A program made the translations under genes and the position numbers. Of a DNA stretch of 48,718 nt, positions 13,315 through 13,848 are shown piece by piece. Position 1 is the stretch's first letter. Each line of letters opens with the position of its first letter. Below the pieces are notes generated by a model, which was not told where the DNA came from, made no database searches, and worked only from the letters and a program-made list of their open reading frames with translations. Origin of the DNA: an uncultured Kiloniellales bacterium (GTDB taxonomy: Bacteria; Pseudomonadota; Alphaproteobacteria; Kiloniellales; JAKSDN01); NCBI GenBank assembly GCA_947258885.1, contig CAMYKD010000020.1, forward strand, positions 5,970 to 54,687, given 5' to 3'.

Positions 13315-13354
13315 TATATGTGGGGGGATTTGCGTACTAGACCACAAAATTTAG

Positions 13355-13384
13355 TTGACAAGAGCGACTCGGGTTGGTTACTAG
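13355..13384 (+). promoter_or_regulatory. putative sigma-70 promoter with GANTC in the spacer
   Basis: A perfect -35 TTGACA (13355-13360) is followed after 17-18 bases by a weak -10 (TTACTA or TACTAG, ending 13383/13384). The spacer carries GACTC at 13366-13370, a GANTC target of the CcrM methylase. Promoters with GANTC here are GcrA-controlled in Caulobacter. It would drive the short RNA ending at the terminator near 13486. Confidence 0.45.
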
Positions 13385-13389
13385 GGGCA

Positions 13390-13486
13390 CGCCAATGCAT
13401 GGACGCGGGTCCTAAGTTTGTATCCTGACAGAAGGGCCCGGCGCGGTTCGAAGGCTCCTGGAGCCGAGATCGCGCCGGGCCTTTTT
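13390..13486 (+). ncRNA. candidate small RNA of about 95 nt
   Basis: Between the promoter above and the strong terminator lies a stretch without coding potential. It contains a small hairpin GGAC-GCGG-GTCC (13401-13412), a single-stranded linker (TAAGTTTGTATCCTGACAGAA), and the terminator stem. The 5' end is estimated from the promoter. The same hairpin with its flank TGCAT recurs, inverted, inside the convergent minus-strand RNA. An alternative is that this is only the 3' untranslated end of the upstream methyltransferase transcript. Confidence 0.42.
13435..13486 (+). terminator. strong intrinsic terminator
   Basis: A perfect 11-bp GC stem (GGCCCGGCGCG at 13435-13445 with CGCGCCGGGCC at 13471-13481) encloses a second hairpin (GGCTCC...GGAGCC, 13453-13465) and is followed directly by TTTTT (13482-13486). 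No T-run follows on the minus strand, so it is directional. Confidence 0.85.
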
Positions 13487-13532
13487 GTCGCCCGGAGCGC
13501 GTGCTGCCGCAGAAATAGGATGTCGGGAGGGC

Positions 13533-13760
13533 AAAAAAAGGGGAGGCGCCAAGTGCGCGGACGCGGGGTCCATGCAACGTACTCCGAAGAGTACTCCTGA
13601 CGCCTCCTGAACCGATCCACCTAGAAACTTCGTGACCCGATGGGTCTGCTACCCGAAGGTGGCGGCCCCGCCGGACCCTTCCGCCTAAAGGCTTCCCGGT
13701 CCGTGCGATCCCCGATCCGAAGATCGAAAACCGCACCACCATGATCCTTCGGATGGCGTT
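13533..13760 (-). ncRNA. candidate highly structured non-coding RNA of about 220 nt
   Basis: On the minus strand this stretch folds into consecutive perfect helices. In plus coordinates they are: 13703-13707 with 13732-13736 enclosing 13713-13726; 13673-13677 with 13698-13702; 13661-13672; 13651-13660; 13634-13646; then a three-way junction closed by 13542-13548 with 13601-13607 and containing 13559-13571 and 13579-13594. Three of these hairpins (13713-13726, 13651-13660, 13579-13594) have the very stable C(UUCG)G loop when read on the minus strand, and seven T residues (complement of 13533-13539) follow the last helix. Both facts fix the strand. A weak promoter (TTGCGG at 13789-13794, 17 bases, TATTGC at 13766-13771) would start it near 13759. 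It shows no 6S, SRP, RNase P or tmRNA signature that I recognise. Confidence 0.55.
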
Positions 13761-13799
13761 TCGCCGCAATACGAAAAACCGCGGCACCCCGCAATTTTC

Positions 13800-13848
13800 T
13801 GTGCATAACAATGCATGTGATGCACAATTCATCCACAGGTTCCCCACA
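13800..13848. promoter_or_regulatory. cluster of four DnaA-box-like sequences
   Basis: TTATGCACA on the minus strand (13800-13808) fits the consensus TTWTNCACA exactly. On the plus strand TGATGCACA (13818-13826) and TCATCCACA (13829-13837) each differ at one position, and TTCCCCACA (13840-13848) differs at two and contains TCCCCA. The three plus-strand boxes start exactly 11 bases apart. The G-second-base and TCCCCA variants resemble the weak DnaA boxes of the Caulobacter origin. Confidence 0.45.

Follow-up and report, generated by a model that had tools for sequence, protein, structure and literature searches.

A structured RNA behind a DnaA-box promoter, faced by a predicted convergent RNA, in Alphaproteobacteria

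Does the densely paired segment at 13533-13760 of the window, i.e., of the whole 48,718-nt stretch of DNA from an uncultured Kiloniellales bacterium that was analysed here, encode an RNA, and if so, what might switch it on and off? The initial annotation had described the segment as an unassigned, highly structured minus-strand RNA whose density of helices was unlikely to be due to chance. On the minus strand it folds to -109.1 kcal/mol, compared with -89.5 ± 4.7 kcal/mol for dinucleotide shuffles (z = -4.16, reached by 0 of 200), and for the plus strand z = -2.7. Chance is indeed a poor explanation, since the folding beats the shuffles and the homologous loci covary strongly. We conclude that the segment holds a real and previously uncatalogued bacterial RNA gene that is present in many Alphaproteobacteria; its product is called RNA-1 below.

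The 3' end is as first described: a run of seven U lies immediately 3' of a three-way junction closed by 12 bp. The three proposed C(UUCG)G sites are likewise all present on the minus strand, and the 5' and 3' ones form the loops of stable hairpins, but the middle hairpin is not a perfect helix because it carries a C/A mismatch, at a place where a relative (L002) has a U-A pair. The 5' end is a different matter. Position 13760, where the RNA had been taken to begin, lies within a promoter at 13741-13769, and because this is the promoter of RNA-1 we place the start near 13734 instead. A long-range helix between about 13755-13747 and the middle hairpin is for the same reason probably absent from the transcript. 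The predicted transcript (13734-13537) still folds better than its shuffles when refolded alone (Table 1).

Table 1. Features of the locus, in window coordinates.
Feature	Position	Strand	Basis or remark
RNA-1, predicted transcript of ~200 nt	13533..13734	-	start about 13734 ± 3; promoter position, fold z = -3.8, homologs
RNA-1 promoter	13741..13769	-	-35 TTGCGG 13769-13764, 17-nt spacer, -10 GATCAT 13746-13741; TTG 29/30 nt from box in 59/66 loci
DnaA-box array	13800..13848	-	43/52 loci vs 2/1158 control windows; 66/69 under looser limit
DnaA box 1 TGTGGGGAA	13848-13840	-	
DnaA box 2 TGTGGATGA	13837-13829	-	
DnaA box 3 TGTGCATCA	13826-13818	-	
Opposite DnaA box TTATGCACA	13808-13800	opposite orientation	begins 40 nt after first box
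5' hairpin H1, UUCG loop	13703..13736	-	compensatory changes in alignment A6
H2, hairpin module with stems of 6 and 3 bp on either side of a GGAA/GGAA internal loop	13673..13702	-	compensatory changes; repeated in L060 and L061
Middle UUCG hairpin	13648..13663	-	perfect in relatives L002/L003, one mismatch in window
Conserved 3' domain, three-way junction doubling as terminator stem	13541..13613	-	covariation in alignments A2, A4, A5
Closing helix of 3' domain	13607-13596/13553-13542	-	covariation in A2, A4, A5
Hairpin A (UUCG) of 3' domain	13594-13579	-	covariation in A2, A4, A5
Hairpin B (GGAC-CCCGC-GUCC) of 3' domain	13576-13554	-	covariation in A2, A4, A5
U7 tract, intrinsic terminator	13533..13539	-	sequence
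Convergent promoter	13342..13383	+	CCACAAAATTTAGTTGA 13342-13358, -35 TTGACA 13355-13360, -10 TTACTA 13378-13383; 29 loci vs 0/207 controls
RNA-2, predicted convergent RNA of ~99 nt	13389..13487	+	complementary to RNA-1 3' domain in its 5' part, ending in a terminator made of a long GC-rich hairpin and T5

The 3' domain covaries strongly, whereas an absence of covariation in the homologous gaps had been named as one outcome that would refute the initial annotation. In 67 distinct sequences, 92% of paired cells hold standard pairs and 24 of the 28 pairs have changed on both sides; the number of double-change cells is 295, compared with 81 in shuffles and at most 49 when the partners are slid. 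Across the whole family the stem letters of this domain are nearly fixed, while its unpaired positions are little conserved. Compensatory changes also support H1 and H2, the GGAA/GGAA module, of the window in an alignment with family f7, and in whole-RNA alignments of f4g22, f66, f94 and f7 paired and covarying columns are more numerous than in column-shuffled versions. The sequences of the f4g13, f2 and f72 sets are too alike for such counts to be informative.

How widely is the RNA distributed? A DNA search of 58 relatives recovered the whole element from two genomes of the same genus, at 97-98% identity, and its last ~85 nt from seven genomes that belong to a different family within the order; most of these carry it at another site, between gpt and an OmpA-like gene. 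Genome searches with two covariance models, R1 for the 3' domain and the broader R2, detected the domain in at least 43 of the 385 alphaproteobacterial genomes that were sampled, and in at least 28 of 59 genomes of the order. Both counts are lower bounds, as few candidates were scored per genome, and the E-values of these home-made models are rough. A phylum-wide search added one further family, f30, and no match outside Alphaproteobacteria was found in the 299 Pseudomonadota genomes searched, nor was there any match in plasmid records. The family spans some twenty family-level groups of the class, with predicted lengths from ~0.1 to ~1.2 kb. The window's own genome carries a second copy of ~0.87 kb (L131 6919-7918, on G000:C10), which is flanked by a divergent sdhC on one side and MaoC/HpcH genes on the other and has both DnaA boxes and an antisense promoter. 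The sdhC-side site recurs among the loci and is probably the ancestral location, although this is an inference. Because the neighbours vary between loci (sdhC, gpt-OmpA or homocysteine methyltransferase), the RNA is best regarded as an independent gene. Note that the loci share ancestry, so that counts of loci are not counts of independent events.

No Rfam family accounts for RNA-1. The absence of a recognisable 6S, SRP, RNase P or tmRNA signature had been remarked on from the letters alone, and in a search of Rfam 15 no family reached the gathering threshold for the window; scores in the region were at chance level, and the 6S covariance model (RF00013) was not matched. A separate 6S gene is encoded elsewhere in 12 of the 12 genomes tested, so RNA-1 is not 6S RNA. 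At the relatives' loci Rfam yielded chance matches to microRNA families only, and we found no description of the RNA family in Rfam or in the literature searched. An 80-nt stretch past the convergent promoter of one locus (L010 1777-1861) gives sub-threshold matches to plant microRNA families and is probably an unrelated inverted repeat.

Upstream of the RNA-1 promoter lies an array of DnaA boxes. The general layout is a series of TGTGGATAA-like boxes at steps of about 12 nt; then, 40 or 52 nt beyond the first of them, comes a single TTWTNCACA box in the opposite orientation. At base 5 the box is free to vary, which is also the case in the known DnaA consensus. This composite precedes the RNA in 43 of 52 loci but occurs in only 2 of 1158 control windows and in 0 of 49 downstream flanks, and under a looser limit a phased array is present in 66 of 69 loci. 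The minus-strand promoter is conserved too, and its position was scored independently of the box search: among 66 loci the TTG of the -35 element begins 29 nt past the end of the last box in 50 and 30 nt past it in 9, where the mean is 2.5 loci per position. Between the last box and the 3' end of the RNA there are 151 to 1279 nt. In f30, a box followed by TTG after a 29- or 30-nt gap is seen at 9 of 15 loci, compared with 15 of 1076 control windows. If a DnaA-controlled promoter is defined by TTWTNCACA boxes at a fixed place relative to the -35 element, the definition is satisfied. Given the constant spacing between the phased array and the promoter downstream of it, DnaA most likely sets when RNA-1 is made, although its binding and activation are inferred.

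Among the f30 relatives (L163, L164, L168-L178) the RNA is shorter, about 0.3-0.4 kb, and several same-strand boxes (TTATCCACA/TTATCCCCA) precede the promoter, replacing the convergent pair.

Beyond the 3' end of RNA-1, on the opposite strand, is a second conserved promoter with the consensus CCACAAAATTTAGTTGA-N-TANNNT. Allowing up to 4 mismatches, CCACAAAATTTAGTTGA followed by the -10 element was found at 29 loci and in none of 207 control windows. In many of the long, sdhC-linked copies this promoter sits exactly 18 nt past the end of RNA-1, where it would give a cis-antisense RNA over the 3' domain. The short copies have a gap of 149-400 nt here, and in these, the window's among them, the promoter would, judging from the letters, drive an RNA of ~100 nt with complementarity to both hairpin B and the helix that closes the 3' domain. 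Specifically, the first 30 nt of this RNA-2 in most short copies contain CAGGUGC..GGACGCGG, which is complementary to CCGCGUCC..GCACCUG in these two elements, and in different families up to about 19 of the 21 positions are complementary. The lineage of the window has GCACUUGG in RNA-1 and CCAAUGC in RNA-2, a parallel change that suggests pairing in trans, but it is a single event and weak evidence alone; in the window the closing-helix complementarity is weaker (GCACUUG against CAAUGC). Taking a conserved convergent promoter together with complementarity to the folded domain as the mark of an antisense pair, the locus qualifies, though not in all lineages: no clear convergent promoter was recognised in lineages f4 g13, f66 and f109. 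Nor can the contact seen in short copies be class-wide in the same letters, since family-wide there is little conservation of the bases that the 3' domain leaves unpaired. The RNA-2 terminator hairpin could also terminate the upstream homocysteine methyltransferase gene. The initial annotation was right about a structured RNA but incomplete: it recorded neither the DnaA-box promoter nor the second, convergent RNA, overlooked the long paralog and set the 5' end too far upstream.

These features can be read in other ways. One is that the segment is a lone terminator or a dispersed hairpin repeat with no function as RNA, and the 3' domain does act as a terminator, just as the modules do stand in tandem in some species (L060 has nine copies of H2 and L061 seven). 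However, the inner hairpins covary as well, a conserved promoter precedes the RNA, and the H2 module is restricted to the RNA locus in the genomes that carry it rather than scattered through them, so that a dispersed repeat of the REP/RAYT type is rejected. A match to a mundane repeat family would have refuted the initial description, and there is none; we can scarcely credit this reading. The same tandem modules bear GGAA internal loops, so that the RNA might be a sponge of the CsrB/RsmZ kind, in which repeated GGA-containing hairpins titrate the translational regulator CsrA. With CsrA in 10 of the 12 genomes first tested this looked promising, but it failed in the class-wide comparison, where lists of genomes with RNA matches and with CsrA matches were compared: CsrA occurs in only 18 of 43 RNA-positive genomes and in 59 of 342 others. 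GGA is moreover merely 1.23 times as frequent as the first-order expectation, and the apical loops are UUCG, not GGA. Already weakened, a CsrA sponge is now very improbable. (Next to the copy with nine tandem hairpins, in G363, is a gene, L194 1720-2670 on the minus strand, that combines an IS200-like transposase domain with a DnaA-type helix-turn-helix, Y1_Tnp + Bac_DnaA_C.)

Alternatively, the boxes themselves could be what matters, as an origin or as a datA-like reservoir of DnaA, with the RNA a by-product. The array does resemble oriC and datA clusters, but at the locus the GC skew stays monotonic in G355 and does not invert in G024, and in G358, a complete genome, its minimum falls near 0.5-0.65 Mb, about 1 Mb from the RNA at 3.98 Mb; oriC can be rejected, as no inversion accompanies the locus in three lineages. 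The fixed gap of 29-30 nt to the -35 element and the covariation of the RNA also point to transcription, and we regard a mere by-product as improbable. The reading that is hardest to dismiss keeps the pair but reverses its direction, making RNA-2 a trans-acting regulator of mRNAs and RNA-1 its DnaA-controlled sponge. RNA-2 is compact and sRNA-like, with an accessible 5' part and a strong terminator, and its CAGGUGC..GGACGCGG motif is conserved in most short copies. Against this, RNA-1 homologs also occur where no convergent promoter is recognised, and a sponge would not need anything like the length of RNA-1, so we think the reversal unlikely, though not to be set aside.

We therefore prefer to see the locus as a structured RNA under the control of DnaA with an antisense RNA acting against it, and consider this probably correct, bearing in mind that transcription, DnaA binding and activation are all inferred and that there are no expression data. 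There would be two convergent RNA genes. RNA-1 would be a structured non-coding RNA that stands alone, transcribed from a sigma-70-type promoter of its own and ended by an intrinsic terminator, the timing of its synthesis being controlled by DnaA at the array; here the sequence architecture is observed, while binding and activation are deduced from it. RNA-2, from the second, highly conserved promoter, would use its first ~30 nt to pair with hairpin B as well as with one of the two strands of the closing helix, and would thereby bind and inactivate RNA-1 (or be titrated by it), leaving active RNA-1 only once DnaA-driven synthesis exceeds the antisense RNA. Active RNA-1 would owe its effect to its rigid body of many hairpins, which would probably hold a protein, but this step is a guess. 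A crude duplex test that ignored accessibility showed no preference for pairing with the dnaA mRNA or leader. More tentatively, the locus could represent a chromosomal circuit shared by the whole class: DnaA would fire a large structured RNA, a dedicated antisense RNA would antagonise it, and the two would form an RNA-based timer for replication initiation, reporting it or feeding back on it; this is a possibility that we would rather doubt than assert. An RNA family that sits behind an almost invariant DnaA-box promoter and faces a conserved convergent promoter may link chromosome replication with RNA-based regulation.

A close parallel to the preferred arrangement is found in ColE1 RNA I/RNA II and other antisense-controlled RNAs, where a convergent or antisense RNA opposes a structured RNA by pairing with its folded domain. 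RNA-1 likewise faces a convergent or antisense RNA complementary to its folded domain, but the pair is chromosomal and conserved in the class, RNA-1 stands behind DnaA boxes, RNA-2 is a separate gene in the short copies, and there is no replication origin at the loci tested. Like CsrB, CsrC and RsmX-Z, RNA-1 has many hairpins with repeated modules, but CsrA is inconsistently present, GGA is not in the apical loops and the promoter has DnaA boxes. OLE, GOLLD and ROOL (PMC12286853) are, like the longer members here, large ornate bacterial RNAs whose function is unclear, but there is no covariance-model match, and length in the RNA-1 family varies from about 0.1 to 1.2 kb. EcpR1 of Sinorhizobium meliloti is an sRNA tied to replication and cell-cycle control that acts on cell-cycle genes (PMC4414408): it resembles RNA-1 in being alphaproteobacterial and, as is proposed for RNA-1, linked to replication, and differs in that RNA-1 has DnaA boxes in its promoter, no detected preference for the dnaA mRNA and no match in Rfam. 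DnaA also serves as a transcription factor in Alphaproteobacteria for protein genes, such as gcrA, ftsZ and podJ of Caulobacter, covered in a review that does not contain the terms small RNA, sRNA or non-coding (PMC8203912). Unlike those genes RNA-1 is non-coding, and if its control by DnaA holds true, it would be a non-coding member of the regulon of the replication initiator, and what DnaA signals beyond the firing of the origin would become a directly testable question.
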